Positions 1,176-64,000 of a DNA stretch of 64,000 nucleotides are shown piece after piece. The notes beneath the pieces are model-generated. The model worked only from the letters and a program-made list of their open reading frames with translations. It did no database searches and had not been told where the DNA came from. Positions within the stretch are counted from its first letter, which is position 1; every line of letters begins with the position of its first letter. The DNA lies in contig NC_072800.1 in the NCBI RefSeq assembly GCF_028583425.1, forward strand, positions 93,899,001 to 93,963,000, in the 5' to 3' direction. This stretch comes from Eublepharis macularius (lineage: Eukaryota; Chordata; Lepidosauria; Squamata; Eublepharidae). The translations under genes were made by a program, and so were the position numbers.

Positions 1176-1456
1176 TCAAGAGGAATCGTGGTCCATGCTG
1201 CAGCCGAGCGCTTCAATGTCATTACTTATGTCCGAGATCATGCGGTCCCACTCGTCTCCCTCCGAGGGGACCGACTGGTCGTCTGAGCTCCCCGTGGCTC
1301 CATTGCCATTGGTGGTGGAGGTGGAGGTGGAGCTTACTGTCCGCCGGTACCTCCCGAAGCTGTCAGTGATGATGCCCCGGCCATCCTTCACCCCCAGGGT
1401 TTCCAGGAAGTTCTCAAAGTACTGGCTGTCCTTCTCCGGAATGAACGGTCTGAGGC
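1176..1456 (-). CDS. CCM2: CCM2 exon 10 (terminal coding exon)
   Basis: The acceptor AAAG precedes 1456. The exon opens with the last two bases of a split Gly codon and encodes [20 protein letters not shown], then a Ser/Thr-rich linker and the tail [20 protein letters not shown], ending with TGA at 1178-1176. It carries the end of the harmonin-homology domain and the conserved acidic C-terminus. Confidence 0.95.
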
Positions 1457-36960: not shown

Positions 36961-37084
36961 TGGGGACGAGGAGTCTTGAAGTTCGGCGGCGGTTATTGTG
37001 ACATAATTTCTGTGGACTCTAGAGTCGGTTTCATAAAATGCATGAAGGCTTATGCTGGGACACGTGTTTTATTTTTTACAGTAA

Positions 37085-37859: not shown

Positions 37860-38159
37860 CAGAACCGGAAGTCATTCAGGCGCGCCATTGAAATTGCAAC
37901 CCCGTTGCCGCGCCCGCCTATGGGGCCTCCATTGCCCCACCTTCACTTGCAAAGCCTTGGACGTTGATTGGGCAGTTGGGCCTGTCCGTTAAGAACTTTT
38001 CAGCCGAGGTTCCTGTATAACAGCAGTAGGCCGCTAGGAGGGGCAGAACCTGAAGAAAGGCTGCTTGTTGAAAAGGGGTGGGGATAGTGAGCGTGATGAC
38101 GTCATGCGCATGGCAGCCGGCGGAGTGGGAGAAGCGGCGGGCTCCGTCCCCCGGGCCAG
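37860..38159 (+). promoter_or_regulatory. Candidate promoter and first exon of SNHG15-like host transcript
   Basis: A CpG-rich block with an ETS-type CCGGAAGT (37,864-37,871) and a full CRE, TGACGTCA, at 38,097-38,104, abutting an NRF1-like TGCGCATG. A clear donor, CCAG|GTGAGG, lies at 38,159/38,160 on the plus strand. The pyrimidine-rich CTCCGTCCCC at 38,142-38,151 could be a 5'-TOP-type start, as snoRNA host genes use. The start site itself is inferred. Confidence 0.6.
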
Positions 38160-39724: not shown

Positions 39725-40190
39725 ATTGAACTGGGGTCAGATTAGGGTCTGGAAGGCGCAGGTTCAAATTTCCCCTCTCCTAGTGACCTTGGACCAGGTA
39801 CTTGCAGCCTAACCTACCTCTGAGAATTATCTTGAGGTTAAAAGGGGAAAGAATCCTGTTTGTTGACCTGAACTCCTTGGTGAAAAGACAGAGTAAAAAT
39901 GAATATGAATGTGCAGACCTGGAGGGCATAAAGCGATGACCAGCGCTAGGCTGCTGTGGCTCATTCTTACACGCCCAGCGTAATGCTGATTGCCACTGTG
40001 GGGCCAGGAAGGAATTTTCCTCCAGGCCTGATTGGCCAGGAAATCCTGGAGGTTTTCTGCCTTCCTCTGGGCATAGAGCCGGGGTCAGTGGAGGAGGCGA
40101 CGGCGGGAGATCGCTGTGAATTTCCTGCATTGCGCAGGGAGTTGGACTAGATGGCCCTTGGGGTACCTTCTGGCTCTCTCTCTCTCGATA
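39725..40190 (+). repeat. SINE fragment and CR1-like 3' tail
   Basis: About 39,725-39,860 resembles a plus-strand tRNA-type SINE ('cgcaggttcaaatttcccct'). About 39,985-40,190 ends in the CR1-like tail 'gggagttggactagatggcc' followed by a CT-rich run. Confidence 0.55.
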
Positions 40191-40291
40191 TTTGATATGC
40201 TTCGGCCCCTACTCGGGCCTTACTCGGTGGCTTACTCAAGCATTCTGTTACATACTCCTGATGTTACAGCTTTTCCCCCCCTCTCTGGCAG

Positions 40292-40344
40292 GATGTTTCT
40301 CTCTCTGACATGTTGGATTCATCTGGATGTTGAAGGCAAAGCCA
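40292..40344 (+). ncRNA. Predicted exon upstream of snoRNA copy A
   Basis: A long C/T tract and TGGCAG acceptor precede it; the donor GTAAGT is an excellent match. The snoRNA at 40,485 lies in the following intron. Confidence 0.5.
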
Positions 40345-40484
40345 GTAAGTGTCCGATCCTGCATGTGCTTATTAAGAGCTCAGTGGCGTTCCTGAGTAAA
40401 GCTGCTTCGGAGATCTCCCTCTGAGCCTCCTGGATAAACTGCCACGAAAAAGGCAGCCACTCCAGCTGCTTGCCGCCTCCCTCC

Positions 40485-40623
40485 CCTCGCAAGCCGTCCA
40501 GCGTGGCCTGGGTCTGCTCTGTGGCCCGGTTCACTCCTGTTGTGCTTGCAAGAGCAAGCACGAGATGGTTTGAGGCCTCGCTCTGCTCCAGCCAGAGTGA
40601 GGTTATAGAAATCTCAGCCAGGC
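40485..40623 (+). ncRNA. SNORA9: Box H/ACA snoRNA, copy A (SNORA9-like), degenerate ACA box
   Basis: H/ACA snoRNAs guide pseudouridylation of RNA. The 5' hairpin closes with CTCGCAAGC against GCTTGCAAG (one mismatch). The hinge AGAGCA (40,551-40,556) fits ANANNA only by overlapping the stem by two bases. The 3' hairpin closes with GAGAT/ATCTC around an internal pocket, then CCTCGCTCTG/CAGAGTGAGG. The terminal box reads CCA (40,618-40,620) instead of ACA. The 3' pocket strands are identical to copy B. It lies in a predicted intron of the SNHG15-like gene. The SNORA9 name rests on synteny, not on a sequence match I could test. Confidence 0.65.
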
Positions 40624-40939
40624 CTAGTGTGGGGAAAGGGAGAAATGCTTGTTAGCCTTCCTTTGGGGCTAGAGGCTTGATCTCAAAGGAGGGAAACCCA
40701 GGTTCGAATCTCTGCTCACTCAGTAGCCTTGGGAAGGGCCCCAGTTGCACTGCTTAATGTACCTTGCAAGGTGATTTAGTATTCTGAGGCCTTTAGGCTG
40801 GGGCTGTGTGTAGCTTCTGTTCATGTCCTGCTTATCCCAGAATAATAACCTTTGCTCCGGGTCTCTGTAATTGGTTTGGGGAGGGGGGAGTTGTGACTTG
40901 GGATGGGTCTGCTCCAAGGGTCTCAAGGACTGGAGCAAA

Positions 40940-41045
40940 AGGCAGGTGGTTGGGTTGTGGATCAGCATTCTGCTGGTTCAAATCACGCCACCACCCTGAG
41001 CTCAGCAGGTGGCCTTGGGTCAGCCACTCGTCTTAGCCCAGCTCC
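40940..41045 (+). mobile_element. tRNA-derived SINE fragment
   Basis: Reads 'caggtggttgggttgtggat', then 'ctggttcaaatcacgccacc' and 'ggtggccttgggtcagccac', which is the head and body of a SINE like those at 58,603-59,010, in the opposite orientation. Confidence 0.55.
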
Positions 41046-41350
41046 CCAGCTTATGTGTTTCTGAACGCGAGAACGCTTAAGTGTTTCTGAAAAGAGATCC
41101 ATGCATTGTTTTAATAACAGTGTACTTCTATACTGATCTTCTCGACAGCAAATGCTGTTGGGGGTTGGGGGAGGAGGCCCTCTTTCTGCCTTCCAATGTA
41201 ATGAAGCCAGAAAAACCAGGCAGGGGGTAGGAAGGAACTTGTGGGCGCTTATGCCTTCCTGCCCCTGCCCCAAGCGTCTCCGTGCTCTCAGACTTGAGGC
41301 TTAACTGACCAGGATGCCAATGAAGTGTCTTTATCAGCTCTCTCTTCCAG

Positions 41351-41545
41351 GCCAGGATGCCAGATCAGCTACTTTACCTTGGATCCAGATGCGAAAAGGG
41401 AGGAGGAAACGGATCTTGCCTTTGAAGCCCTCCTGTTTCCGGGAGTCTTGCCTTCTTGGGACAGTTCCTGAGTTTGAATCCCACGTGGTGGAGTCAAACC
41501 ACTACAGTGCTCTGACGTGAGATGGCGGTTTCAAGGGAGTGATGG
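41351..41545 (+). ncRNA. Predicted exon between the two snoRNA introns
   Basis: A branch-like CTGAC, a pyrimidine tract and TTCCAG precede it; the donor is GATGG|GTGAGT. It separates the introns that carry snoRNA copies A and B. Confidence 0.5.
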
Positions 41546-42124
41546 GTGAGTGTTAGGGAATTTTGGGAGGGGGGTGCTAAAAGTTTCCCCCAACAGTGAG
41601 GGTCTGAAACTGGCCAGCTTCACGCCCGAGAACTGAGCCTCATTAAGGCGGCTTTGGAGATGTTCCTGGAACAGCCTCTTATTGCCCACGTCACTTTTCC
41701 AAGGGCTGTGCCTGCCGGCTCCCAAATTGGTATTTGGTCTTCTTTAAGAGCATGCCAGTTGCAAGAATATCTGAATTTACCTAAGTTATGTTGATGATTG
41801 TTGAGCAGACAGGCTTTCCTTCTGTTCTTTAGCAGACAGAACTTTGCACATTAGGAGAAGCCATATGTTGGTTTTGGGGGGTTACGTGCTTTGTTTACAT
41901 TGATGCAACGTTTGCAGGGCAGGTAACGAGTAATTGTCAGTGTTGTGCATGTACTTATGGAGAGCACCGCAAACTCTGGAATTATTTTAGTCATAGCTGA
42001 GCAGCAAGAAGGCTGAAAATCTGCTTTCTTTTATCAAATGACGACAGAGATTCTCTGGTGGGAGAATGCCAGCCCTGGTAGCAGATGTTACAGGCAGGGG
42101 GTTCCCTTTCTTTCCTGTTTCCCT

Positions 42125-42264
42125 CCTTGCAAGCCTTCCAGCATGGCTGGGTCTCTCCCATGACCTTGATCACTCCTGTAGTGCTTGCAAGAGAAGACCT
42201 GAGATGGTTTGAGGCCTCGCTCTGCTCCCATTTCGGAGTGAGGTTATAGAAATCTCAGACAAGT
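42125..42264 (+). ncRNA. SNORA9: Box H/ACA snoRNA, copy B (SNORA9-like), intact boxes
   Basis: A canonical H/ACA fold. The 5' hairpin has a perfect nine-pair base (CTTGCAAGC/GCTTGCAAG) and an upper stem GCATGG/CCATG(A)C. The H box AGAAGA (42,192-42,197) matches ANANNA. The 3' hairpin is closed by GAGAT/ATCTC, has a pocket, and a ten-pair upper stem CCTCGCTCTG/CGGAGTGAGG with G-T wobbles. ACA (42,259-42,261) lies three bases from the expected 3' end. Length is about 140 nt. It is intronic to the predicted SNHG15-like gene, where human carries SNORA9. Family name inferred from synteny. Confidence 0.8.
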
Positions 42265-42704
42265 ATTGCTCGGGAGAGTGCAAGTGGCTGGCCTCAGAGG
42301 TGGTGTGGGAAAGACACCCCCACCCTGTTTTGTTACGCGTTCCCCTGATTCAGCATGGAGACGGTTATAGCCAAAGTTTATTGTAAAGCTAGGAAGAACT
42401 AGTCTTTGGCAGAGGGACAGAGGCCCACACGTTGCCCCACCTGTGAAGAAGCTTCCGTGCCTCGTCCGTGGCAGAGAGTGGTCTGCAATTCCACACAAGA
42501 TCTCGTGAGCGTACAGTTTAGCTCTTGGCATTCTGATAAAAAAAACTGCAAAACTCCTTTGCCTTTCTGGTGACTTGTAGAATAAACCATGTATAACTTT
42601 AAATTCTTACTAAAATTTGTGAAATGTGCTGGTGTCAGTTCAACTGCAAGATTTTGGTTGTGTGCCACAGAGTACATACAGATCTACCTTCCTTACCTTT
42701 GTAG

Positions 42705-42875
42705 GCATGTCCCTTTTTAACAGTGCCTCCTTGCAAGGGAGAGTTTCGGACCCATCGAAGAGAAGCTTGGAAACCGGTGGAAAGCTCAGCAACCAAACAG
42801 AGTTCAGAGCTGCTTAAAAGCAAGCCCAGCTTGCCCCATCTTTCCACTGATCCTCTGGGAGAGAATCTGCTGCTG
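42705..42875 (+). ncRNA. Predicted exon of SNHG15-like transcript
   Basis: Acceptor CCTTTGTAG with a good pyrimidine tract; donor GCTG|GTGAGT. 171 nt; no conserved coding content seen. Confidence 0.5.
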
Positions 42876-42964
42876 GTGAGTTGTTGTCAGGGGCGGTCAT
42901 CTTGTTTGTTTTTCCCCTATCTGATAAAGTGGTTGGCTCATGCCAATCCCATTTGTAGCAAATC

Positions 42965-43803: not shown

Positions 43804-44103
43804 GTCCCACGAGGAGGAGATGCCTGCCCGTGCCCAACAAGATGCTGCCATAGTGTGCTTAGGGCGCTTTCCAGTTTTGGAGCTCCTACCATTTGACGCA
43901 TCTGCACAACCAACTGGGTGTTGCATTGAATGCACCGGGGGATTCTCTAATGCTGCTGTACGAGGATCAGCTCAGGGACCTGCCCACCTTAGTCGCTGGC
44001 TGACTAATTCCGGGCAGGGTGCACAGTCTGAAATCGCTTAAAAGAGGAAGTATCTTGCCGTCAGACATCAGCTTCTTTTAATAAATATGCAAAGGAAGTA
44101 ATC
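43804..44103 (+). ncRNA. Predicted terminal exon with poly(A) signal
   Basis: The acceptor is TTTCTTTCCAG. AATAAA lies at 44,080-44,085 and a GT-rich downstream element ('gtgttgtc...ggtgtgtctg') follows. The cleavage position is approximate. Confidence 0.55.
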
Positions 44104-47714: not shown

Positions 47715-47809
47715 ATGGCGGAACAGGAGAGCCTGGAGTTTGGGAAGGCTGACTTTGTCCTCCTGGATCAGGTGACCATGGAGGACTTCATGGAGAACTT
47801 GAAACTGAG
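47715..47809 (+). CDS. MYO1G: MYO1G exon 1 (coding)
   Basis: The ATG at 47,715 opens [20 protein letters not shown], then [11 protein letters not shown], and ends with AG of a split Arg codon before GTAAAG. Human MYO1G starts with a similar acidic stretch followed by [12 protein letters not shown], which fixes this start. Confidence 0.93.
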
Positions 47810-50800
47810 GTAAAGACCAGATACCAGGGTAAAGGGGGGGTATGGAAGGCCCTGAAAGACAGGGGTGCAACGGTCATGCCCATACCTGCAACTTATGGAA
47901 TTTGCTCCCTCCAGATGTTGGAAAGGAGAGGGGCAGTGCCTCGTGCTGGTTCAGGCCCAGGGGGACCCATCTCCTTAGGCCTCCAGTTTCCGACAGCAGC
48001 CAGTCAGATCTTTCAGGGCAGCCCCTAAGCCAGAGAGGGTGCAGTCAGCCTCAGGCTTCAGTCTGTCCTGGGCATCTGGCAGGTGTCCAAAGAGACATTT
48101 CCCCTGAACGTGGATCTCTTGATTTATTTATTTGTGTTTTTGTTCTGCTTTTACAGCCCACGATTCTCTCTCAAAACGGCATGAAGCAATTTTTATGATT
48201 TTTGATTAAAATATTCACATATGAGAGAGCTATCCTCCATCCAATACTTTTTAAAGCCTTCCAAGTTGCAGCCAGCTCCACATCTTGTGGAAGTGAGTTC
48301 CACGTGCTAATTGCGTGCTGTGTGAACAAATATTTCCTTTGGTCTGTTCTAAATTCACTACCCGTCCCCTTCCCTCTCCTTATTGAAACAGTTTATCCAA
48401 GGTCATTGCAGGCTGGTTTCATGCAACTATTTCTTCCAAGACACAGGTTTTCAAAGGCTTTTGAGTTGTAAAAGCAAAACGGAATATCCAAAGGGAGTTG
48501 GGTAGAGAAAGGCCTTCCCCGCCACCTGCAGCCTCGTGAAGCATTCACCCCCTACCCTGTCTAGCTTTTTATATTTCGCACAGGTTTGATGCTTTTCTTT
48601 GTAGCCATATGGACTAGAAACATCTGTGTTTACAAACAGACTTTAGAATATCAAGTTCTGTGTGAATCAATCACATGCGGACATGATGCATGCAACCCCT
48701 GTAAGGGGTGTCAGGCAGTATGGCTCCAGCAGCCTGCTCTTTACTGTTCACAAATGCAGGGGCAGCAAAGCCACGCTTTCTAGCCACTGTATGTACAACT
48801 GACAGGGAGCCACAGGTTGCCTCTCTCCTCAGAAACTCACCTGTGAGACACGCACGTTTGCATTTTTAGGGCTATGCCTAGATCAGGTAACATGTGAAGA
48901 GGGAGTACGCTGGGCCGTGTCGCCTGGGGAAGCAGCCTTGGGGCCTGGACGGAGGCTCAGGCACACTCAGCCCTGCCCACTCTCGGTCCAGAGACCCGGC
49001 TTTAGAAGTTAGTCTTCCTCATCTCAGTTCGCTTTGTGAGGAAGTTTCCTGCCATTGGCCTTCCCCTGTTTACAGGAAGGTGCCCGTTTCTCAACCTCAG
49101 AGAAGCTCATGACATTTATGGGAACAGACGCAGGGTAGCGTTTATCCTCACAACAACCTTGTGATGTAAGCTAGAGTGAGAGAGAGAGTACACCTGGCTC
49201 CGGGTCACCCAGTGAGCTTCATTATAAAGTGGGGATTTACCTCCTAGATCTTAGTCCAATCCTCTAACCATTAACCACACTGGATTTCCTGCTGACAAAT
49301 GTCACATATTGGCTGCACATATATTTCTGTGTTCCAGGTAGGTAGCCATATTGGAATGCGCTAGAATAGCAGCCTTTGAGTCCAGTGACAACTTAGAGAC
49401 CGACAAGATTTTCAGGGCATGAGCTTTTGAGAGTTCCCTCCTTCAGATACACTCGAGGCAGTGGGCCAAGCCACTGTTGAGGTGTTTGGAGGTAGAAGTA
49501 GGGATTAAGGGATGTGCTTTGGGTTGGTTTAAAGCGTTCCTTATGTGCAAAATTCCGAAGACTGCTGTTAAGGGGAAAGTTTTCTGCAGTGTGGGACCTG
49601 CCTTGTGAGGTTCTACAAGGTTCCCACTTTCGAGGGGGTCTAGTTGTCTCTCACCAACTCGGTTAAGGCCCTACCTGGGGGTGATTCTGGATCCAGCTTC
49701 ATTGCTGGAGAAGCCAGCTGATGCAGTTACAAAAACGGCATTCGAACAGCACCTCTTTGCTCAGAAGATGTCCCTCTATGTTGACTAGGCTGAACTGGCC
49801 ACCTGGATCCATGTGCTTACCTAGAGGCTAGACTACTGCAATGCACTTTACATGGGTCTGCCCTTAAAGGCAACTCAGGAACTCCAGCTGGTACAGAAGG
49901 CTGCCGCATGGCTGCTATTGGGCGCTAAGCAGAATCGGCATATCACGCCCACGCTGCAGACAGTTGCCAGGCTCAGTTCAAGGTTCCGTCACCTACAAAG
50001 CCCTTAACGGCATGGGACCCCCTTACGTCCGGGGCCTCCTCGCCTGCTGTGTTCCATTGCAGCAGCTTCACTCATCCGAGTCTTTTGAAGGGGCCACGCT
50101 GCAAACAGGTAACATTAGCAACTGCTTGTTCAGGTGCATTCTCTGTGGTGGCTCCCACATTATGGAACGGTCTGCCTAAAGCTACTAGAGAAGCCCCCAC
50201 ATAACCACTGTTTCGCAAAATGTGCAAAATAGAATTGTTCAGGGGGGTATTCCTGTAGAAGAGTAGAGCTGCGAGACAATGGGTCAGATCAGGAAGTGAT
50301 CCCTGTTAGGGAAAATGTGTTTCTCCCCCCGCTTCCAGTTCTTAAATACCATCCCATTGCATTGTGTTGTTTTGCTAGGAATCTTTGCTGTCAGACTTAA
50401 ATGTTATCATATCTGTAATCCCTTTGCTGATTGACTGAATACCTTTGGGTTTTTTGGGGGAAACTTGACTGTTAGATTCAAATATTGCTGTCAATCAAAT
50501 GTTACCATATTTTGTAATTGCCTTATTGTTTGAATAGTTCGATCATACTTGTAATCCACTTTGAGTCCCAGTGAGAAAGGTGGCCTATACATGGAAATAA
50601 ATAATAATACTAATGAAAATAAATTGCACAAAGAGTGTCCATACCGGCACTTTGCATTTCTGGAAGCTGCAGAGGTTGTCCATGTGAGTAGACCTACTTA
50701 TGAAGCCAGCAGCTGACAGCTTTTACACACAGCGCTACCGTGAGATACGTGACTGGGCATGAGTAAAGATGAGACTGTCATTCACCCACATTTTAAAAGG

Positions 50801-51082
50801 GCATTATGCCACAGACCGATAAGAAATGAGTCAATGCTACTTGCTGCCTTTGGTCTCCAAGCAGCTGACATCTGGAGCAGCCTCGGCATTTAGTGCCAGG
50901 TTAGACACAGGAAAGTCCAGACGCAGGCGGGCTGCGGAAGTCACCAGGGACGTTCCAGGTGAGCAACTGTTGATGGTACTACTGACACCACCAGCAATAG
51001 CGGTGGGGGTAGCTTGCTCATGGCCTGCTCCTGCGCTGCCTTGGCTAGCAGTATGCCAGATGATGAGCACACCTATCATCCC

Positions 51083-51130
<48 letters not shown>

Positions 51131-54100
51131 TTCGACTTATACCCCGCCCTTCCCGCGAGCGGACTCGGTGGCTTCCAACAAAATATATTATTAAAATACA
51201 ATAAAGCGTTATTACAAATAGCATACACACCAATATTAATACACAATTAGACAATCAGCATAAAAACCCAGGAGCCATCAAACAAATCTGGCCACTACAG
51301 AATCACTGTAACCAGGGGCACCGCCATGACGTAACTCCAGGGCAGCTGCAAAAGGAGGGTGTGGCGGTCAGAAAGGGGGACAAAAAGCTGGCCCCTAGTC
51401 AAAGGCCTGGCGGAACAGCTCTGTCTTGCAGATAGGGCTGCCAGGCCCCCTCAACCTCCCGGTGGGGGATTGGGGCCTGACACTTACCTTTGGGGGGGGG
51501 AACGCAAGTGTGATGACATCACTTCCTGAAGTGACATCATCACGCGGCCCTTGGGAGTGCGCCACAGGGGCCCACATCGCGCCTGTTTCCGGCTGCTGAG
51601 GAGCGTGGAAGCAATCCTGCGCTCTGCAGCAGCCCGAAAGGGGCCCGTTTCAGCCCAGATCAGGTTCGTTTCGGGCCCATTTTGGCCTGGATTGGGCCCG
51701 TTTTGGGCCGCTGCGGAGCATGGGAGCTCTCCTGCGCTCCACAGCGCCCCAAAACGGGCCCAATCTGGGATGAAATGAGCCCGATCCAGGTGGCTGCAGC
51801 ACACGGGAGCTCGCAGTGCCATGGGGGCACACACATGGAAGGTGAGCTCCCCACTACTGGCCAGGTAAGCAGAGGCGGGGGTGGGGGCGAGGGATCCTAC
51901 TTGCTGGCTCTATGGAACTGTAAAAGGCCCCGCAGGGCCCGGATCTCCAGTGGGAGAGCATTCCACCAGGCCGGGGCCAGGGCAGAAAAGGCCCTGGCCC
52001 TAGTTGAGGCCAGCCGAATTGCCTTCGGCCCGGGGACCACCAGAAGCTGTTTATCCGCAGAGCGCAAGGCCCTGCAGGAGGCATAATGGTAGAGGCGGTC
52101 CCGTAAGTATGCAGGTCCCAATCCGTGAAGGGCTTTAAATACTAAGACGAGTACCTTGAACTGAACTCGGAACCCAACCTTTCCACTGCTGTGAGCTTGG
52201 CTTGCTCCTGAATCGTTTCATCCACCCTGCCGCAGTCTGTAGCAGGGTTCTGGATGCTTTGAGATGACGGACAGAGGAAGTCAAAGCACAGGTATCTCTC
52301 AAACTTGGTGCAGCCTGTCTGGAGAAAGGCAGAGGAAACTGGGGGCCTCTAAGCAGGATGGAGGAAAACCAAGGTGCCCCCCCCCCTCCAGTCAAGACCA
52401 GACTTTAGTGCTGGCAGCAAGGGAAGGTTGGAGGGTATCGAGGTCCTGAAGCCTTAAAAAGGTAATGGGATGGATGAGAACAAATAAACTAAAGCTCAGT
52501 GTGGGGCTGCCTTTGAAAATGGTTCCGCACCTTCTGCTGGTCCTAAACGCTGTGCCTCTCGGCAGGGATTGGTTACAGGGGGGGCATCATCCTAGTGCCG
52601 GGGGATCTGCAGCACTGGCGGCCTGTCTGTTTCTGGGCCCGGTTCAAAGTGCTGCTTCTTCCTTATAAAAGGCCATGAATGGCTTGTTGCCAAGGGATTA
52701 TTTATTTGCTTTATACCCCACGTTTTTCCTCAATGGGAACCTGAAGTGGCCTATTTTGTTTTCCATGTCAACCTCACAACAACCTGTGAAGTAACTTAGG
52801 CTGAGGGGATGTGACCGGCCCAAGGCCACCTAGTGAGTTTCCATGGCAACGCGGGGATTTGAACCTGCGCCTCCCAGATCCTAGTCCAACACTCTCACCA
52901 CTATGCAATGCTGCCTCTGGTTCTTGGAATACTACGGATAGGGAAATTTTTTGAATAGTGCTCTGCTGCCAGTTATAAATTTCCCTTCTACCACTTACCC
53001 AAATATAATCCAGGATGCCAACCACAGTGATACAGAGAAGTATGAGTTCTGTTGTTACACAAAACTCAGACGCATGAGGTTCGCAGGGCCTGATGCGTAC
53101 TGAGCCACCTTATCTTTATGCCTGCATACTTTAATGCTAAATTGTTTACAGATCAAAAGGTATTACCGACAGTTCACTTAGACTTCATCTGACAGAGAAT
53201 GACGGCTTCATTACTTTGAGTGGCAAGATACAATCAAAATACGTAATACAAACAAGAATCCCTCCTGGCTCCTTGTGGTCAGGCCGGAACATAATCAATC
53301 TGCAATGTGAAATGTCCAAGGCTGAATGTGGAACCCTTATGCTAGATAAAAATTGCTTATAGTTATGTCTTTACCAAATTGTGTTGCGTCATACCAACCT
53401 GCGGGATAGCAACCATCACAACAAGAGACGTGGAAGGTGCTGTTTAGGTGTTTTCCATAACTTTCACATGCCAGGCAAAGTTTCTTGATCGCAAAACTAA
53501 AATGGTAGAGGTCTTTATTAAGAATTCCCTAACAACTACCTCCTCCCAAACTGTGCAGCCCACAAGTTAAGATCCTCTTTCCCGACCTTGCTCTGAAGCC
53601 CTCCTGGCAGAAACGGGGGCGGGGGAGGGGGGTGCCAGGGCCCTCACCTGAGGAATGCTCTCCTGTCTGAGCTTCACCTGGTGCCTGTTTTTCTTTCCTT
53701 GCCGTTTGGTGCCAAGACAAAGTATTATTATTTTTCTTATTAATTAATCAATTTAATTAATTATTTTTAAGCCAGGATTTTAACTGAGGTTTTTAATCTT
53801 TTAAAGCTGTTTTTATGGTCTGCTTCTAGCCTGAGGATTGTTTTAGGAGTATAATTCTTAGTCCCTGGCAGTTAGGTCCCCAAGTTCTCCATAGTTAATT
53901 TAATTTATTCAATTTATACTCTGCCCTCCCCACACCACAGGCTCAGGGCGGATCACAACAAAGCTTAAAAACACATTTCACAGTTCAGGCCATTAAGATC
54001 ACTAAAAGCATAAAATACATACTGTATTTTTAAAATACCATATCTATATAAATATAGAAACAAAAAACAATAATCTGGATGACCACCTTTTCGCCATCTC

Positions 54101-57100
54101 CAAAGCGTTTTACCAGGAAAATATGTGGGAGATGGAAGGTGTCACTGGAAGGGAGGGCATATACTTTATTTCCCCCAGCTGGGGGGGGGGCACTGCCTAG
54201 CATCAACCACATGCCTGGTGGAACAGCTCCGTCTTACAGGCCCGCTGAAACGCTAACAAATCTTGCCGGGCCCTAGTCTCATAAGACAGAGTGTTCCACC
54301 AGGCTGGGGCCAGGACCGAAAAAGCCCTGGCCCTGATCAATGCCAGGCGGGCCCCCATAGGGCCAGGGACCTTTAACAGATGGTTATCGCTCGAGTGAAG
54401 AGTCCTCTGGGGTTCATATGGGGAACATATGGGTTAACACACAGGTGTTCCACTTGAAGTAACTTTATTAGAGATCCATTCAGTACAAGGTTCATAGACA
54501 GTGAAATTGGCAGAAGTGACGTAGGTAAGAATAGCAGTGTTAGTTATAGGGCATATTCCCGCCTTAATTTGGACCGTTAGCCTGGGGTGGGTGGGTTTTG
54601 GAGTGAGACATTATTTAGAGCAAGTAGTGGGAAAGATGGACTTATCTTTCGTTCTCAGGAAGAGCACACCATGAGCCTGCTTCGGCTGGCTGTCAAGGAC
54701 ACTAGCTCAAAGGAGCGAGAAAGAGAACGTAAATATTGCAAGATAACAGGCACAGAGCAATAAAGAACTCCCCCATTCTCAGGAGCCATAGTTAGAACCC
54801 ACATACATTCATGGTAGATATGCAGGAGGCATAGACGACAATAATTTTTAGATTGCTGTTTTATGTTGTTTTTATGCTTTGGCTTGTTTTTGTGTATTGT
54901 TTTTAATAGCTTGGTTTGTTTATTATTGTCAATGTTTATGTTCTTGTCTTTATGATTTTATTGCATTGTTTTTATCTTGAGAACCACTTCAAGCAGGTTT
55001 CCGGAGAGGTGGCACATGTGTTTTCGGAACAAATGAAAGTCAGGACAGCAGTGATTTGTTTCTAGAGACTGGCCCTAGTGTGCAGCCGCCCATAGTGTGA
55101 TGCTCCAACCACGCTAGGTTGTCCTGCCTAAGTCCAGTTTCTTTGGTCCTGTCTAGGTTTGAGAAGGGAAGGATCTACACCTACATTGGGGAGGTGGTGG
55201 TCTCCATGAACCCCTACAGGCAAATGGATCTGTATGGCAAGGACATGATTGAACAGTATCAGGGCCGAGAGCTGTACGAGAGGCCGCCTCATCTCTACGC
55301 AGTGGCTGATGCGGCCTACAAGGCCATGAAGCGAAGAGCCAAAGACACCTGCATTGTCATTTCAGGTATGGGGCAGACACGGACTTCTCTCTCCTGGTCC
55401 CATCAGCACTTTGGTTGGTACGGGATGGTCCGCACTTGCCTCTCTCTTGGGAGGGGTTGGTGCTGCAGGCAACAGTCGCAGACCTCACTGGGGCTTCATT
55501 TGTGTTCAGTATCTCCCGAACTCAGCCCCAGGGACAGATGAATCAATAAATCAAGATGAGTGCATCTACACATCTTTAAATCCAGAGGAGTGAGCCGTGT
55601 TAGTCTGTAGTAGCAAGATAGTAAAAAGTCCAGTAGCACCTTTAAGGCTAACCAACTTCATTGTAGCATAAGCTTTCGAGACCCACAGCTCTCTTTTTCA
55701 GATGCATCGTCAGCTTTCGAGAACCACAGTTCTTTTCATCAGATGCATCTGATAGAGCTGTGGTTCTTGAAAGCTGATGATACATCTGACAAAGAGAGCT
55801 GTGGCTCTCGTAAGCTTATGCTACAATAAAGTTGGTTAGTCTTAAAGGTGCTACTGGATTCTTTACTATTTTACACATCTTTAGTAACCATGGCCAGCCT
55901 TCAAAGTTTGACATGCAGGGGTGTGGTTACCAAAGTTAGTGGGTGCGCCTTTCAAGGCAGGGTTTGGCCATTTTGCCTCTCCTTTTTGATTTGGGCCACT
56001 AGGATCCACCAGACACTTCCAGTGGGCTTCTATAAGTGACATGTCTATGAAATGGGATGTGTCCCATTTTCTCCAAGGGAACTATTCTCTGTAGTCTGGA
56101 CATCAGTTGCAATTCTGGGATATCTTCAGACCTCACCTGGAGGTCTGAAGATAGTTTACAAAGTGTCTTATTATCCCCACAACAAAACACCCCGTGAGGC
56201 GGGTGGGGCTGAGAGAGCTCTGAGAGAGCTGTGACTAACTCAAGGTCACCCAGCTGGCTTCAAGCGGAGGAGTGGGGAATCAAACCCAGCTCTCCAGATT
56301 AGAGTCCTGACACTCTTAACCACTACACCAAACTGGCTCTCCACCAAACTGGATGTCAAAGGCCTAAGAGCAGGCAGTGCCTCAGGGGCTTGGCCATCAA
56401 AGGCCCCGTAAGTTAGGGCCCATCCTCCCTTGATGCATACTAAACTAGTCTCTCCAATAAGAGACCATTTGTGTTTCCAATTGCATGTTACTTGTCTGAA
56501 TGCACTGACCTGCCTTTCAGGAGAGAGCGGAGCGGGGAAGACGGAAGCCAGCAAGTACATCATGCAATATATCGCTGCCATTACAAACCCTACCCAGAGA
56601 GCAGAAGTGGAGCGGTGAGCGGTTCCAGAGGTCACGTTTGTTAGATGCACTCAGCCTTCTTAACCAGGAACAGAACCTCTTTATTCAGACTGAAGCAGTC
56701 CACCTCCGAGTGCAAGCTCTTGAGTCGTTGCCACGACCTTGCCGGGAGATGTATTTGCATTTATTTATTTATTTGTATCCCATTTTTCCTGCTGGTTGGG
56801 ACTCAAAGCAGCTGAGAACATTGCTTCCTTTCCTGCCTCCGTTTCCCCACCACAACAATCCTGTAAGGCAGGTCCGGCTGAAAGTTTGTGAGGGGCCCAA
56901 GGTCACCTAGCAAGATTCAGTGGTAGTAGTGGGGATTTGAACCCGGGTCTCCCAGGATCCTCGTTCTATCCCCTGCACCCTGCTGGCTTTCATGTGACTG
57001 GCTCCTGGGTGACAAAGGCCTTTAGTCTGAACTGGCAGAGCTGCTCCATGCGGCAATTTGTGTTGGGAATGGTGACAGGGCCTGCAAGACAGGGTAGCTC

Positions 57101-60100
57101 ACTCATCTTCTGGCAAATGCCCCCCTGCTTCCCCCAGACTGTTCCCCGAGAAGGGGTGCCGCGTAAGTCCGTGTGACCTTTTCAAAAACTGAATAAAAAA
57201 CCGGCAAGGCAAAAAAGCCAAGGTGCAATAAGAAATAAGACGTTTATTATGTACTGGAAAAGCCCCTATGCTTTTTGCATGCAACTTTGCCAGGGGATCA
57301 TTAAATATATCTGCCTCCAGTGAAACACCAGGTTCTACCTGAGACCCTGGAGAGCAGCTGCCAGCCAGAGCAGACAACGCTGACCTTGAAAAACGAAGGG
57401 TCTGGCGCATTATAAAGTGGGCTTTATGTATGTTTTCTTGATTTAATCTGTAGTGTAATCTGAAGAGGCTTTTCTAGGGAGAAACACAGATTAGGAAAAC
57501 ATGCCTTAAATATTTGACAGAACAGGTCAGGCCAGTAAGGTGGCAACAGGTGTCCATTCACCAGATTGCCCCTCAGGTGAAAGCTATGGAGTGGCTCCGT
57601 TGGGGGCAGGGCGGGTGATGTCAGGGCAGATACCCTAGGAACTGGAAAGACAATCCGTATCAGGCTGCCTTAGCATGAAGCAGCCAGTAAACTATACAAC
57701 AAGACTTGGATTACAAAAATTAGGAGAGCAGGATTTGAGTCTGGTGGGACCACAGAGACCAACAAGGTTTTCGGGGCATTGGGATCTGATGCCTCGTCTC
57801 CCAGCACCTGCCTTTTTGTCCAGCTGCAAACTTGTAATCGGTCTCCAGATCATAGAGGGCAGTCCCGACTTTTGGAATGTGAATTCTAGGATCGAGGGCA
57901 TTTCTCCCCACACCATGAATCGAGCACCAGGCACTTGCAAAGAGCTTGAGGTGAGCATCATCACTTGTGTGTGTTTGTGTGTCTTTGTCTCACCTCAGAG
58001 TAAAGAATATTTTGCTCAAGTCCAACTGCGTGCTGGAGGCTTTCGGCAACGCAAAGACTAACCGCAACGACAACTCCAGCCGCTTTGGCAAATACATGGA
58101 CATCAACTTTGACTTCAAGGGGGACCCCACCGGGGGCCACATAAATAATTACCTCCTGGAGAAGGTATGTTGGAACATGAGTGGGCCGGGGCAGGTGGCC
58201 CTTCTGACTTCCTGTGAGATAGTGACCCCCAGAGGAATGCTGGTGCCCAGGAGTCCGCTGAGAAAAGCCCCAGTGGCCCTTATGGGGCTGCTGACTTGCT
58301 CCCGGGCCATTTTAACATCTCTGTCTTTCCTCTACGAGTATGGGTGCCATCATTATCATCACCACAACCAGGGCTTTTTTTCAGCAGGAACACAGTGGAA
58401 CGGAGTTCCGGAACCTCTTGAAAATGGTCACGTGGTCGGTGGCCCCGCCCCCTGATCTCCAGACAGAGGGGAGTTGAGATTGCCCTCTACACCTCTGTCT
58501 GGAGATCAGGGGGTGGGGCCACCGACCATGTGACCATTTTCGCAGAGGGCAACCCACTGAGTTCCACCACCTCTTTTCCCAGAAAAAAAGCCCTGACCAC
58601 AACAATAACAACTACACTTATATACCACTCTGCTAGAGAGATTCGTGCCCCACTCAGAGCAGTGAACAAAGTAAGTGTTGTTATCCCCTCCATGCAGCTC
58701 GGCTGAGAGGAGGGGCTGACCCAAGGCCACCTGCAGAGCTCATGGCAGTAGTGGGAGTCGAACCTGCAGAGTTCTGGTCCACAGCCCAACCGTCTAACCA
58801 CTATGCTACAGCAACTCTCATAATAACTCTGCTTCTATACCACTCTGCTAGAGAGATTAGTGCCCCACTCAGAGCAGTGAACAAAGTCAGTTTTGTTGTT
58901 ATCCCCACATACAGCTGGGCTGAGAGGAGGGGCTCACCCAAGACCGCCTACTGAGCTCATGGGCTGATCCACAGCCCAACCACTTAACCACTATGCTACT
59001 GCAGCCCCCTTCTAACAAAAGTTTTAACAATTTGCATGAGATTCGGATTTAGGTAGTGATATGCCTGAAATGATCCAAATGGCTCGTTCGTGGCCTCGGG
59101 AGCTCATGCGATTCTGCGCTCTAAAAGGGGCTGTGGCTCAGAGGCCGAGCACGGGCTTTGCGTGCAGAAGGTCTTTCGTTTCTTCCCCAGCACCTCCTGA
59201 TAAACAGACCTCTGCTGAGACCCTGGACAGCCACTGCCAGTAGTAAACATACTGCCCTTGATGGACCTATAGCCTGAGTCAGTAAAAGGCGGCGTTATGA
59301 GTGCACAGCTGCAAAATTGTAGATTGGTGACAAACCATTTTTCCAGCTGAGCATTCATTGGCATGCTTTCCATCATTTGCACGGGGTGCTTGAAGTAATT
59401 TTTGTGTCGACTTCATTTTATTTATTTATTTGTGTCATTTATAGTCCGCCTTTCTCACTGAAACTCAAGGCAGATTACACAATGTGAGATTAATATGATA
59501 TTACTTTGAGTGTGTTTTACTTTGTTTTACTCCTCCCGTGGCGCAGGAGCCCCGTAGCACAGAGTGGTAAGCTTCAGTACTGCAGCCCAAGTTCTGCTCA
59601 CAACCTGAGTTTCATCCTGGTGGGTTCAGATACCTAGCTCACAGTTGACTCATCCTTCCACCCGAGGTCAGTAAAATGAGTACCCAGTTTCCTGGGGGTA
59701 AAGTGCAGATGACTGGGGAAGGCAATGGCAAACCACCCCGTAACAAAAAGTCTGCCAAGAAAACGTCGTGATGCGACATCCCGCAACGGGTCAGTAATGA
59801 CTCGGTGCTTGCACAGGGGACTCCCTTTACCTTTACTTTGTGAGCAGGTCTCTGGAGAGGCAGCGTATAAATGCTTTCAAATAAATAACATTGTGGTGCC
59901 TGTTTTGTAGAATTCCGCTTTTTTTTCCTTTGGGGAACTACTGTGGTGTTCTGTGTCTTCTTCCCTGCAGTCTCGCATTCTTCAACAGCAGCCTGGAGAG
60001 AGGAACTTCCATGCCTTTTATCAGGTGAGCCGACTTCTGGCAGGTGGGGGCTCATCTCCTTCCCTTTTGAATCCTGGCTTGGATTGTTCGTAGATGCAGC

Positions 60101-63100
60101 CCAACAGAACGGGATGGATGGGCTTGACCTTCAGAACCGTTTGTATAGCAAAGCAGAACATTGCAGACTGAAGGAAGGGGGGGAGGGTGTCTTCACCTAT
60201 TGTTGGCTCGAATTTGCCCTCCCCTGGTTCTCCTTTTGGTCTCTGCATTTTGATCATGAGCTGTGGATACAGCTTGCCATCCCGAAATTCCTGTGCAAAC
60301 AATACAGTCACATCACAATGCAACATTCATTGTACTACTGTACTAATACACATCATGTTACAACACAGTTCCTTCAAATGTCTCTTATTAAAGTGTCTCC
60401 AGTGTCTCCAAAGCACATTCTTAACCGCAGGGGACCACCAACCCCATTCCTGTTTCTTCTTAGAACAAGGTAAGAACTCCTTGGGTGAAGAATGAAAATT
60501 CCTGTACTGGTCTCTGTAATGTAGTTTCTTTTTACAGGTGTCTCACATGATCTTAACAAGGTGTTACAGGAGAAATACAGCCACTGACAGTCCTAGCTTT
60601 CGTCAAAACGACTTCCTCAGGGACTTGTGACACACTACATGAAAACAATCAAAGGCATATTCATAAACATAAGCATTAACAAGTTCATTCTTAACAAATC
60701 ACAAATGGTTCTCATTGGCATCAATCCAAACTCAGGTTTCTTGCCCTGCAGCTGACTCATCCAATCTAACCCAGAGAGTGACTCGTGACAGACATAATAA
60801 GAGACATTTGAAGGAACCGTGTTGTAACATATGTATTAGTACAGTAGCACAATGAATGTTGCATTGTGATGTGACTGTATTGTTTGCACATCATATTCTT
60901 TTTCACATTGATAAAGTTTGTTAATCATAACGTGGGATATCCGTGTGTGTGTGAACACATTGTTGCTATTGTCTGTAAACGGGTATCAGGCTTGTTTTGT
61001 TTATCCCGAAATTCCTGGCATGCCAGCCATGGGAAACGAAAATCAAGGTGGTACCAAAGGACGGACCTGGGGAGGAGCCGAGCATCTGCTTGTCTCATAG
61101 AAAGCCCCAGGTTCAAGCCCCAATTAAAAATGTCCCAGGTGTTGCGGCACTCTTTGGGTGCCGCAACATGCCTTTTGATTTTTGCTGCCACAGACTAAGA
61201 CTGCTCCTCCTCTGAAATGACTTTCAAAGCGACTGCCGGAGTCTGGCTTGGAAGGCCCCAGGTGCCCATTAACAAGGACTTGCTTCTTTCCCACAGCTGC
61301 TTCTTGGGGCCTCGGACGCTTTATTGGACTCGCTCCATCTCAGCAGAGATCCTGAAGCCTACAGGTTTACCAGAGAGGGAGCCAGAAACAATGTGAGTTT
61401 CATGCAGTTTAAAAAATGATGCACCTTTTAAAGGTTCCTGCTCTCCTTTAATCTAATCACCTAGAGGAATTACACCTCTTGGGTTTATGCAGACATTCTT
61501 TAGTGGGGGGTTAGAACCACCGCCTCACTTCTAATCCCGCATTGCATAGAAGCCCAAAGACAAAAATCCAAACAAGAATCACACACAGCTTGAACTTGCA
61601 TGAGGAATTGAAAACTGATCCTCTAGGGGTGAGATTGCTCTATCCCTTGGCATCTCCGTGGTGAAAAGTGAGCATGAGATGATATGGTAGGCATTAGACA
61701 TATTGGTTGCTTTTGTTATGAATTACAATAATTATGAAAATGGGCTGTTCTTAATTATTGTAATTATTATTTATTACTTTTATTTTTTTTATTTGTGTCA
61801 TTTATAGTCCACCTTTCTTACTGAGACCCAAAGCAGGTCACATACTGTGAGATTAGTACATTTAATGTCAAGAACATTTCTATAAACAATGCCACAGGGT
61901 AAATAGATACAAGTTTACAAAGGTATTTATTTATTTATTTCCGTCATTTATAGTCCACCTTTCTCACTGAGACTCAAGGCGGATTACCCAGTATGAGGTT
62001 AATACAAACAGAATCAAGCACATTTCAATACAATACCATAAGTTAAACTGAAGTTTAAAAGGATCCAAGACAGAGTAGAAAAAATACTGGAGCAAAACAC
62101 AATCAATTCTAGGGCTGACATTAGACAACATGGAGTGCTGGTTGTACATAGGAGTACATATTTAAAGCAGCAGATAACGCAAAAATGGTGATGAAGTCTA
62201 TGATCCCCAACTCATTAGTGAAGCACCTGAGACCCCCTCCCTACAATGCAGCCCTCCCATTTGAGTAAAAAGCCTTTTCAAATAGTTTGGTTTTGCATCG
62301 TTTACAGAAAGCCAGGAGAGTGGGGGCTCTTCTGACTTCCTCAGGCAGGTCATTCCACAGGATAGGGGCCACCACAGAGAAAGCCCGTGTACGGGCTGCT
62401 GCTGACTTCACCTGGGTGCAGCCTGGTACCTGCAGGAGACCCTGTTCAGATGAGCGAAGCTGCCGTGGACGAACATAGGGAGGAATCCAGTACAACACAG
62501 AGGTGAAGTCCATGGTTCTTAACTCATTAGCAAAGCATCTGAGACCCCCTCCCTGCAATACTTCCCTCCTATCTGAGTAAAAAACCTTTTTGAATAATTC
62601 AGTTTTGCATTATTTGTGGAAAGCCAGGAGAGTGGGGGCTCTCCTAACCTCCTCAGGTAGGCTGTTCCACAGGGTAGGAGCCACCACAGGGAATCATAGA
62701 ATCATAGAGTTGGAAGAGGCCATACAGACCATCTAGTCCAACCCCCTGCCCAGTGCAGGATCAGCCTAAAGCATCTCTGACAAATATTCATCCAGCCTCT
62801 CCTTGAAAACTGTCAGTGAGGGGGAGCTCACCACCTCCATAGGCAGCTGATTCCACTTTTGAACTACTCTGACCGTGAAAAAGTTCTTCTTAATATCCAG
62901 CCGGTACCTTTGCGCATGTAATTTAAGCCCATTGCTTCGCGTCCTCTGCTGCCAACTGGAACAGCTCCCTGCCCTCCTCCAAATGACAGCCTTTCAAATA
63001 TTTAAAGAGAGCAATCATGTCCCCCCCCTCAACCTCCTCTTCTCCAAACTAAACATTCCCAAGGCCCTCAGCCTTTCCTCGTAGGGCTCAGTCTCCAGAC

Positions 63101-64000
63101 CCCTGATCATCCTCGTCGCTCTCCTCTGCACCCTCTCGATTTTGTCCACATCTTTTTTGAAGTGAGGCCTCCAGAACTACACACAATACTCCAGGTGCGG
63201 CCTGACCAAGGCAGTATAGAGAGGGGCTATGACCTCCTGCGATTTCGACGCTATGGCCCCTTTGATACAACCCAAGATTGAATTGCCCTTTTTTGCCACC
63301 ACATCACACTGACTGCTCATATTTAGTTTACAGTCCATGTAGGGGCTGCTGTTGATTTCACCCATGTGCCGGGTGGCACCTGCAGGAGACCCTGTTTGGA
63401 AGAGCGAAGCTGCCGTGTATGCTATATTAAAATGAAACAAATTCCCCATGTTAACAGCCTATAATGAGAAAAAATGTTTTTTTAATGTTATCTTCTTGCA
63501 ATTTCTTTCATAATTGCAGTCTCTGTCTCTGCTCGTTTCACTTTTACAAGGCAGCCGATGTCCAAAGTGTTCCTTAGAGGGAGGGGGGAGACAGACTCTG
63601 GGCTTTCTTGATTGACAGCAGGCTGTAGCCACTAGAATAACATGCATTTGTTAGGTACTGCAATCCTGAAGATGATGGGGTGGGCATGCCATGACTGCCG
63701 GTGTCAAAGCCGCCTTTTCAGGGAATCACCAGGCAGTGGTTGGAAATGCTGCAACTCCACAGGAATCCAGTGCATGCAAACAGCATCGGATGCAAATAGA
63801 GCCATTGGGCTGCAGGGATGGAGCCTCACTCCTAGTTCGTTGGCAAAGCACCAAGGCGACTTCCTTTGCTCATCCCTTTCTTGCTTCTGTTGTCTCTCTC
63901 TAGTACTCGGGCAGTGACAAAGCCAACCACAGAGCAGTTGAAGGTGCCATGAAGGTGATTGGCTTTAGCCCAGAGGAGATGGACTCCGTCTACAAGATCT
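47715..64000 (+). CDS. MYO1G: MYO1G, unconventional class I myosin, N-terminal motor-domain part (continues past window)
   Basis: MYO1G is a short-tailed, actin-based class I myosin of the plasma membrane of lymphocytes and other blood cells, contributing to membrane tension and motility. Seven plus-strand exons give about 270 of roughly 1,018 residues. The N-terminus reads [20 protein letters not shown]. The P-loop GESGAGKT is at residues 102-109, built across the exon 2/3 junction. Switch [10 protein letters not shown], is at 156-164, followed by [20 protein letters not shown]. All internal junctions close in frame with GT-AG sites. The last visible exon ends with [15 protein letters not shown] and runs off the window. 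Intron 1 is 7.3 kb. Identity is clear from memory of human MYO1G and from the CCM2 neighbour. Confidence 0.95.
48235..48380 (+). repeat. Interspersed repeat fragment
   Basis: Shares 'gtggaagtgagttccacgtg' and 'gctgtgtgaacaaatatttc' with the LINE-derived repeat type seen at 18,785-19,140. Confidence 0.45.
49138..49288 (-). mobile_element. tRNA-derived SINE fragment
   Basis: The body 'tcacaaggttgttgtgagga' and head 'ccagtgtggttaatggttag' are read on the minus strand; it is a shortened Sauria-SINE-like copy. Confidence 0.65.
49640..50625 (+). mobile_element. L2-like LINE, 5'-truncated
   Basis: Frames in turn encode L2-type RT C-terminal motifs: an 'LDYCNALY' equivalent near 49,830, then '[12 protein letters not shown]' near 49,885. 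The copy ends with the tail 'gtgagaaaggtggcctatac' and an AT-rich run. Many stops and shifts; dead. Confidence 0.75.
51082..51129. repeat. (TTTA)n microsatellite
   Basis: About twelve pure TTTA units at the 3' boundary of the minus-strand LINE that follows, as expected for a LINE tail on that strand. Confidence 0.92.
51130..52190 (-). mobile_element. L2-like LINE 3' end with internal repeat insertion
   Basis: The 3' UTR begins at 51,130 ('ttataccccgcccttcccgc'). The coding remnant on the minus strand at 51,900-52,150 includes [20 protein letters not shown], then '[20 protein letters not shown]'. A different repeat interrupts it at about 51,425-51,895, containing a CRE-like palindrome and a duplicated GC-rich segment. 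Confidence 0.75.
51425..51895. repeat. GC-rich dispersed repeat inserted in the L2-like LINE
   Basis: Starts 'agatagggctgccaggcccc' and carries TGATGACATCACTTCC plus its inverted partner (51,510-51,542). It also holds an imperfect internal inverted repeat built on the words 'gggcccgttt' and 'aaacgggccc'. It splits one LINE copy into two pieces, so it is younger than that copy. Confidence 0.6.
52697..52920 (-). mobile_element. tRNA-derived SINE (Sauria-SINE-like)
   Basis: On the minus strand it has 'gcagcattgcatagtggtga' at the head, 'ggcgcaggttcaaatccccg' as B box and 'cacaggttgttgtgaggttg' in the body. The tail has 'gtggggtataaagcaaat'. Confidence 0.8.
53885..54425 (-). mobile_element. L2-like LINE 3' end
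   Basis: The tail 'ttatactctgccctccccac' is at 53,915. The minus-strand remnant near 54,220-54,400 matches the coding remnant at 29,330-29,600 ('tggtggaacactctgtctta'). Confidence 0.7.
54840..55020 (+). mobile_element. L2-like LINE tail, plus strand
   Basis: Ends 'gtttttatcttgagaaccac' and 'ggagaggtggc', typical of LINE tails in squamates. It points away from the copy at 53,885-54,425, so the pair lies head to head around unassigned sequence. Confidence 0.5.
55157..55365 (+). CDS. MYO1G: MYO1G exon 2
   Basis: Acceptor TGTCTAG, donor GTATGG. It encodes [60 protein letters not shown] and AKDTCIVIS, and ends in the Gly codon that begins the P-loop. Confidence 0.95.
55582..55872 (+). repeat. 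Palindromic foldback element, longest copy
   Basis: Starts 'ccagaggagtgagccgtgtt' and has the two arms of the family plus two extra inner inverted segments around 'gatgcatc'. It lies in MYO1G intron 2. Confidence 0.78.
56158..56342 (-). mobile_element. tRNA-derived SINE (Sauria-SINE-like)
   Basis: The minus-strand head 'gccagtttggtgtagtggtt' is followed by 'gattccccactcctccgctt' and 'agccccacccgcctcacggg'. It is very close in sequence to the tandem pair at 42,965-43,405, so the same subfamily. Confidence 0.85.
56521..56614 (+). CDS. MYO1G: MYO1G exon 3
   Basis: Acceptor CTTTCAG, donor GTGAGC. It completes the P-loop (ESGAGKT) and continues [23 protein letters not shown], ending in a split Arg codon. 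Confidence 0.95.
56615..57998 (+). other. MYO1G: MYO1G intron 3
   Basis: Contains a Sauria-SINE-like copy at about 56,758-56,995 (minus) and a foldback fragment near 57,720-57,790 ('gagcaggatttgagtctggt'). The rest has nothing recognised. Confidence 0.5.
56758..56995 (-). mobile_element. tRNA-derived SINE (Sauria-SINE-like)
   Basis: The minus strand has 'agccagcagggtgcagggga' at the head, 'cgggttcaaatccccactac' as B box and an AT-rich tail at 56,758. Confidence 0.75.
57999..58164 (+). CDS. MYO1G: MYO1G exon 4
   Basis: Acceptor CACCTCAG, donor GTATGT. It encodes [40 protein letters not shown] and [15 protein letters not shown]. It carries switch I. Confidence 0.95.
58369..58595. mobile_element. 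hAT-like MITE with 8-bp target duplication
   Basis: A 227-bp non-coding element. Exact 14-bp terminal inverted repeats CAGGGCTTTTTTTC / GAAAAAAAGCCCTG flank a large inner palindrome ('gatctccagacagagg' and its complement). Both ends are bordered by ACCACAAC (58,361-58,368 and 58,596-58,603). An 8-bp duplication and a CAGGG terminus are hallmarks of the hAT superfamily. It sits in MYO1G intron 4. Confidence 0.85.
58603..59010 (-). mobile_element. Two tandem tRNA-derived SINEs
   Basis: Head-to-tail minus-strand units, about 58,603-58,817 and 58,818-59,010. Each contains 'ctctctagcagagtggtata' and 'tagcatagtggtta' with near-identical bodies. Confidence 0.8.
59128..59295 (+). mobile_element. tRNA-derived SINE (second type)
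   Basis: Head 'ggggctgtggctcagaggcc', anticodon-like 'ctttgcgtgcagaagg', body 'gctgagaccctggacagcca' and end 'agtcagtaaaaggcggc'. The best example of this family in the window. Confidence 0.8.
59528..59839 (+). mobile_element. Long tRNA-derived SINE with CTTTA-type tail
   Basis: Head 'ccccgtagcacagagtggta', middle 'gtcagtaaaatgagtaccca' and 'ggcaatggcaaaccaccccg', end 'gactcggtgcttgcacaggg' followed by 'ctttacctttac'. It is nearly full length and immediately upstream of MYO1G exon 5. Confidence 0.75.
59971..60024 (+). CDS. MYO1G: MYO1G exon 5 (54 nt)
   Basis: Acceptor CCCTGCAG, donor GTGAGC. It encodes [18 protein letters not shown], a conserved segment of the myosin motor; phase 0 at both ends. 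Confidence 0.95.
60294..61002. mobile_element. 709-bp insertion with long inverted arms and 15-bp target duplication
   Basis: A 15-bp direct repeat ATCCCGAAATTCCTG flanks the block (60,279-60,293 and 61,003-61,017). Inside, 60,294-60,390 and 60,796-60,888 are inverted copies of about 95 bp, starting TGCAAACAATACAG. A unique tail of about 114 bp separates the right arm from the right duplication. The long variable duplication and one-sided tail suggest retrotransposition rather than a cut-and-paste transposon; a Penelope-like origin is possible. No coding region remains. It sits in MYO1G intron 5. Confidence 0.8.
61297..61392 (+). CDS. MYO1G: MYO1G exon 6
   Basis: Acceptor TCCCACAG, donor GTGAGT. 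It encodes [20 protein letters not shown] and [12 protein letters not shown]. This loop is less conserved than the neighbouring exons; human starts LLRGSEDKQLHELHL. Confidence 0.9.
61760..62690 (-). mobile_element. Series of L2-like LINE tails, part tandemly duplicated
   Basis: Tails begin at about 61,795 and again at about 61,935 ('atagtccacctttctcactg'). The minus strand at 62,241-62,480 keeps [20 protein letters not shown] and KTKLFEKAF, the LINE ORF2 C-terminus. The segment 62,190-62,501 is repeated in tandem from 62,502 on. Confidence 0.8.
62691..63339 (-). mobile_element. CR1-like LINE fragment nested in the L2-like tail
   Basis: Starts with 'gaatcatagaatcatagag', the complement of the CR1 3' end. 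The minus strand encodes [20 protein letters not shown] and then '[18 protein letters not shown]', classic CR1 ORF2 motifs. L2-like sequence breaks off at 62,690 and resumes at 63,340. Confidence 0.9.
63340..63425 (-). mobile_element. L2-like LINE tail, continuation after CR1
   Basis: Aligns with 62,395-62,470 ('ggctgct', 'cctgcaggagaccctgtt', 'gcgaagctgccgtg'), so it is the rest of the second tandem unit. Confidence 0.8.
63904..64000 (+). CDS. MYO1G: MYO1G exon 7 (runs off the window)
   Basis: Acceptor TCTCTCTAG. It encodes [20 protein letters not shown] and [12 protein letters not shown], matching human DEQSHQAVTEAMRVIGFSPE. Its 5' end is a few residues shorter than human. The donor lies beyond 64,000. 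Confidence 0.92.

Follow-up and report, generated by a model that had tools for sequence, protein, structure and literature searches.

Between CCM2 and MYO1G the window, which is the whole 64,000-nucleotide stretch of DNA analysed, carries two H/ACA snoRNA genes of the SNORA9 family on the forward strand, here called copy A and copy B. The coding exons of CCM2 lie on one side on the reverse strand, and those of MYO1G lie on the other side on the forward strand, both being located with human protein queries; for MYO1G, the one class I myosin compared, this was the N-terminal part of the protein. A Pfam search of 20 of the 291 listed open frames gave a single hit, to Myosin_head, in the frame at 57955-58452. 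Human SNHG15 lies between CCM2 and MYO1G on the MYO1G strand. On that order the position of the SNORA9 host is that of an SNHG15 orthologue, and the SNHG15-type location proposed in an earlier, sequence-only reading of this DNA is supported by the flanking exons. The features are collected in the table.

Features of the CCM2-MYO1G interval, with coordinates in the window; exons given as putative come from splice-like sites and motifs
Feature	Position	Strand	Basis
CCM2 coding exons, 9 tblastn stretches	1179..13471	-	Human CCM2 query, 57-91% identity
Putative host first exon, start unmapped	38100..38159	+	CAG|gtgagg at end, TGACGTCA at 38097; splice-like site and motif scan
Putative exon upstream of copy A	40292..40344	+	Summed splice score 12.1, below best reverse-strand score of 12.5
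SNORA9 copy A (H/ACA snoRNA, CCA for ACA)	40487..40623	+	Rfam RF00411, pair count, folding
Putative exon between A and B	41351..41545	+	Summed splice score 10.7, below reverse-strand 12.5
Alternative putative exon between A and B	41833-41922	+	Score 10.8, below reverse-strand 12.5
SNORA9 copy B (canonical H/ACA snoRNA, ACA box)	42127..42264	+	Rfam RF00411, 28/28 pairs, canonical free fold
Putative exon downstream of copy B	42705..42875	+	Summed score 14.4, highest of the region; best reverse-strand score 12.5
Putative last exon	43804..44100	+	3' splice-like site 7.1; polyadenylation hexamer AATAAA at 44080
MYO1G coding exons, seven tblastn stretches starting at 47715	47715..63999	+	Human MYO1G N-terminal query, 47-86% identity

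The putative exons would set copies A and B in successive introns, as had been proposed. Splice-like sites scoring at least 5 are about equally frequent on the two strands (three donors on each, and six acceptors on the forward against five on the reverse strand), and in the splice-site scan only the exon at 42705-42875 outscores the best exon of the reverse strand. The exon layout is therefore provisional, and the placing of A and B in successive introns, depending as it does on sites no commoner than on the opposite strand, is putative.

Several other elements were seen around the host gene. A scan of 36001-46000 places CACGTG E-boxes at 37061, 38590, 38696 and 41482, near the putative host promoter, a number that does not clearly exceed chance for 10 kb. 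Two E-boxes have been reported for human SNHG15, in exon 1 and intron 1 (PMC6480895, excerpt). Upstream of the host gene a GC-rich stretch at 36400-36900, with TGACGTCA at 36775, looks by eye like a possible CpG-island promoter, perhaps that of the CCM2 side. At 36042-36205 there is an imperfect inverted repeat, also recognized by eye, with sub-cut-off matches to microRNA families, and one of these matches appears on both strands. Similar pieces are found again at 37080-37124 and 37316-37357. Of the nine Rfam matches listed for 36001-46000, the seven below cut-off were discounted as chance hits or palindromic repeats. At 43050-43398, in the would-be intron before the putative last exon, a repeat unit of about 178 nucleotides stands twice, head to tail, with matching blocks 91-92% alike.

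The identity of the two snoRNAs is clear. On scanning the 64 kb window against Rfam with cmscan, copy B matches RF00411 with 116.9 bits (E 5.8e-24) and copy A with 107.9 bits (E 1e-21), each over model positions 1-133 and each exceeding at full length the gathering cut-off of 85 bits. These are the only two matches above cut-off in the whole window. Thus the two H/ACA snoRNAs are where the sequence-only reading had placed them, and the covariance-model check that it proposed comes out in its favor. An RF00411 search of the genome (2.24 Gb, 72 contigs), in which the best 42 candidates were scored so that weaker copies could escape, gave no third SNORA9 locus; at this sensitivity the copy number is two. 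Used as the query in a DNA search, copy A found only itself and copy B. A single DNA pattern for SNORA9 relatives gave no match in either of the collections viral_contigs and genome_contigs, as expected of non-vertebrate collections. The excerpts of the literature examined contain no report of two SNORA9 genes in one host. The name SNORA9B is given to a human gene in one table row of an excerpt (PMC8656740), where its location is absent.

Copy B is a canonical H/ACA RNA. Its free fold is a hairpin-hinge-hairpin-tail structure with an energy of -55.5 kcal/mol (z -4.1), and it has an H box and an ACA three nucleotides from the 3' end. All 28 Rfam pairs are kept (28/28), in agreement with the perfect basal stem and ACA described earlier. 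Copy A keeps 27/28 and has an H box of the ANANNA type, AGAGCA. The mismatch and the CCA that had been noted in it are both confirmed: at the base of the 3' hairpin C-A stands for U-A, so that the outermost pair of the basal stem is lost, and the tail has CCA where ACA is expected, with no A-N-A triplet anywhere in it. In the 3' upper stem the T-A pair of copy A is T-G in copy B, with pairing kept, as described.

The hairpin-hinge-hairpin-tail fold had been ascribed to both copies. This holds for copy B, but the minimum-energy fold of copy A (-62.9 kcal/mol, z -3.3) has a different, non-H/ACA shape. Under a constraint that keeps the hinge unpaired copy A does take up the H/ACA shape, at -56.0 compared with -62.9 kcal/mol. 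The same constraint costs copy B 4.9 kcal/mol (-47.3 compared with -52.2), in part because it spans two nucleotides that are paired in B. The difference in copy A can be traced to its hinge, GCAAGCAC, which is complementary to GTGCTTGC immediately before it; together they can form a hairpin of eight or more pairs, and the 5' basal stem is predicted to be lost. The pair probability of this stem is about 0 in copy A and about 1 in both copy B and the Rfam consensus. Swapping the hinge of B into A in silico restores the stem with a probability of 0.997, and 4 of 300 random hinges placed in copy B abolish it. The prediction depends on context. With 50, 100 and 200 nucleotides of flanking sequence copy B is predicted to form this stem with probabilities of 0.01, 0.55 and 0.04 (37 °C), and the predicted hinge fold is therefore fragile.

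We have looked for the targets of the pockets in an 826-nucleotide 28S fragment of this genome (L008 1199-2024, contig C5). Its ends are odd and it is possibly a pseudogene, and so it serves as a stand-in for 28S only in the conserved core. Of four stretches submitted to Rfam, this one and L009 (142 nucleotides at 6112-6253, contig C3) gave 28S above cut-off, and L007 and L010 gave none; L010 (contig C9) contains a short exact match to 28S. An exact search of the assembly with a second conserved 28S pattern gave nothing, and the full rDNA may therefore be unassembled.

In the scan of L008 the 3' pockets of copy A, copy B and the Rfam consensus all select the same best site, CUAU-UC-UCAAAC, with 7+4 pairs. 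The shared 3' pocket strands that had been noted are indeed identical, with 0 of 19 columns differing. The 5' pockets of both copies can pair with CAGGA-UA-GCUGG (5+5 pairs, 16 nucleotides from the H box); this is the best 5' site for copy B and scores 10.0 in copy A. The earlier description of the 5' hairpins as diverged is correct insofar as 10 of 57 columns differ, three of them in the pocket. It does not extend to the predicted guide nucleotides: in both pockets those that would pair with 28S are the same in the two copies. The proposal that the copies share one target and diverge in the other, 5' pocket is consequently unsupported, as each copy can pair with both 28S sites, and as far as predicted pairing goes the idea that the two SNORA9 copies have different targets is corrected. 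A different 5' target in one of the copies finds no support in the pocket scan of L008.

Taken alone the 28S matches are not strong. In a control made with the 3' pocket of B, 12 of 200 shuffled targets equalled its score. The distance from 3' pocket to box is 13 nucleotides by our own count, where 15-16 is usual in eukaryotes (PMC7991803, excerpt). There is also a rival 5' site, UGGA-UG-GCGUUGG at L008 1899. It pairs with copy A as 8+4 at 21 nucleotides (10.5) or 8+3 at 16 nucleotides (10.0), and is the top site of the Rfam consensus with 9+3 at 16 nucleotides (11.0), above CAGGA-UA-GCUGG, which scores 9.0 there (5+4). It fits A and the consensus and is not among the best eight 5' sites listed for B. 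On this pattern the rival site might be an option retained by A and lost by B, and a second target of A. We prefer CAGGA-UA-GCUGG because its pairing lengths match the published ones. SNORA9 is assigned to U1683 and U1782 of human 28S rRNA (PMC12288042, excerpt). Our two sites are 99 nucleotides apart in a stretch of human 28S, which equals 1782-1683, and 94 apart in L008. It is this agreement in spacing and in pairing lengths with what excerpts report for ACA9/SNORA9 that supports the targets. The pockets can pair with the equivalents of 28S U1683 (5' pocket) and U1782 (3' pocket, human numbering), which are thus their predicted targets.

Copies A and B are identical in 111 of 139 aligned columns. 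The differences tend to spare the stems and pockets, where they affect 9 of 100 columns, against 14 of 33 in the rest (Fisher p 4.9e-5, with column classes defined on the Rfam structure once the alignment was known). The copies differ at four Rfam pairs, three of which remain paired. Comparison with the Rfam consensus gives 102/137 identical columns for A and 103/138 for B, and where A and B differ (28 columns) the consensus sides with A in 11, with B in 11 and with neither in six. The two are equally far from the consensus, so copy A is not generally more decayed; as judged from its sequence, the damage in it is confined to a small number of sites that matter.

The surroundings of the two copies bear on the age of the duplication. 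In the 400 nucleotides downstream and the 60 upstream, 220 and 88 of 300 shuffles respectively reach the local alignment score of the real flanks. Flanks so hardly alignable indicate that the duplication is not recent. By eye the flanks of both copies are without an A-rich tail or matching direct repeats, and retroposition of the snoRNA was rejected as a candidate. The pattern of differences and flanks is consistent with an old duplication after which selection, or in part gene conversion, has preserved both guides. An old duplication raises the question of whether the pair is local to this lineage or is a feature common to many relatives, with one copy lost in birds if the animal is a reptile. 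The decay of the flanks is what a shared, ancient pair would show, but weak traces of flank similarity persist, matched by only 1 of 300 shuffles over 400 nucleotides upstream and 6 of 300 over 60 nucleotides downstream. At four stem pairs, moreover, both copies depart from the Rfam consensus by an identical change on the two sides, which suggests that A and B resemble one another more than they do the family average; it dates nothing. A pair shared widely among relatives is in our view a real possibility that falls somewhat short of being probable.

We consider it rather probable that a host gene in the SNHG15 position contains two SNORA9 genes produced by an old intragenic duplication, with B as the working guide and A impaired. 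The duplication within the host gene would have yielded the two genes, each probably released from the spliced host transcript. Both pockets of each copy would place dyskerin on the equivalents of 28S U1683 (5') and U1782 (3'). Copy B would be the working guide. Copy A would keep both guide elements while being deprived of the ACA box, the outermost 3' basal pair and, on prediction, an open hinge, and would most likely accumulate poorly or have recently begun to decay. We infer the intron positions, the expression and activity of the copies, and the order of these events. Of the two outcomes that the sequence-only reading had offered, one working and one decaying copy is thus the one favored by the CCA, the broken basal pair and the predicted hinge fold of A. 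Excerpts of PMC10234308 report that expressed snoRNAs have the better conserved boxes and, citing others, that the snoRNAs of a single host can commonly be anything between silent and abundant; this fits a silent or weak copy A.

The main competitor to an impaired copy A is that both copies work, as redundant guides for the same two 28S modifications in a dosage role, with CCA tolerated and the hinge of A opened by proteins. The identity of all the nucleotides predicted to pair with 28S is what redundancy would require, and copy A, with its 27 pairs and its H box, stands 23 bits above the RF00411 cut-off. The tail is the difficulty. The recognized alternatives to ACA are AUA, AAA and AGA, the adenines are the most conserved positions, and the boxes are needed for accumulation (PMC7991803, excerpt), so that CCA violates both the consensus and the A-N-A pattern of the listed variants. 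The same excerpt notes that archaeal Cbf5 uses its PUA domain to bind the CCA end of tRNA, and by analogy CCA in copy A may be tolerated. The predicted free fold of A, which is not of the H/ACA form, also speaks against redundancy, and we think it unlikely that A is a full working partner of B.

It is less likely still that copy A has long been non-functional and owes its apparent conservation to gene conversion from B over the 3' half. The 3' hairpins are indeed the more alike, differing in 5 of 56 model columns, two of these outside the apical loop, as against the 10 of 57 in the 5' hairpins. Yet conversion of the 3' half leaves unexplained the intact 5' guide strands within a changed 5' hairpin. 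Finally, we give very little credence to copy A as a retained, remodelled SNORA9 whose stable hinge hairpin and CCA tail would make it either an H/ACA RNA able to switch its 5' domain or an element of the intron that acts on the splicing of the host, with the guide strands under selection.

On the reading that we prefer, with B working and A impaired, the locus can be set against those known in human and chicken. The genes here share with human SNORA9 (ACA9, RF00411) the family model, the two-hairpin shape and the CCM2-MYO1G neighborhood, and their pockets are predicted to suit the two 28S uridines assigned to it in print. In human one SNORA9 is described, in intron 2 of the five-exon SNHG15 (PMC6480895, excerpt), whereas here there are two, and copy A is without ACA. 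The chicken counterpart of ACA9, GGgACA31, is likewise described as a single isoform, in intron 2 of the mRNA CR391354, with pairing of 5+5 in the 5' and 6+4 in the 3' pocket (PMC2653536, excerpt). These guide lengths fit both copies here (5+5, and 7+4 in the 3' pocket), but by their numbering its sites are 83 nucleotides apart (1618 and 1701) where those in L008 are 94 apart.

With identical predicted guides, one canonical and one lost box, and a single locus, the two copies make a natural pair for what H/ACA RNAs need for their retention. The way in which the pair arose has ample precedent. Six chicken H/ACA snoRNAs gave 13 paralogues, and almost all chicken snoRNA paralogues came from duplication within the host gene, with guide regions conserved and the rest variable; intragenic duplication is a main source of new snoRNA genes in that genome (PMC2653536, excerpt). 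SNORA9 is not a duplicated case among the paralogues described in that excerpt. The SNORA9 pair is an ordinary intragenic snoRNA duplication of a well-known mode, and copies A and B show the same pattern as the cis paralogues of chicken, in which the guides are kept and the remainder varies.
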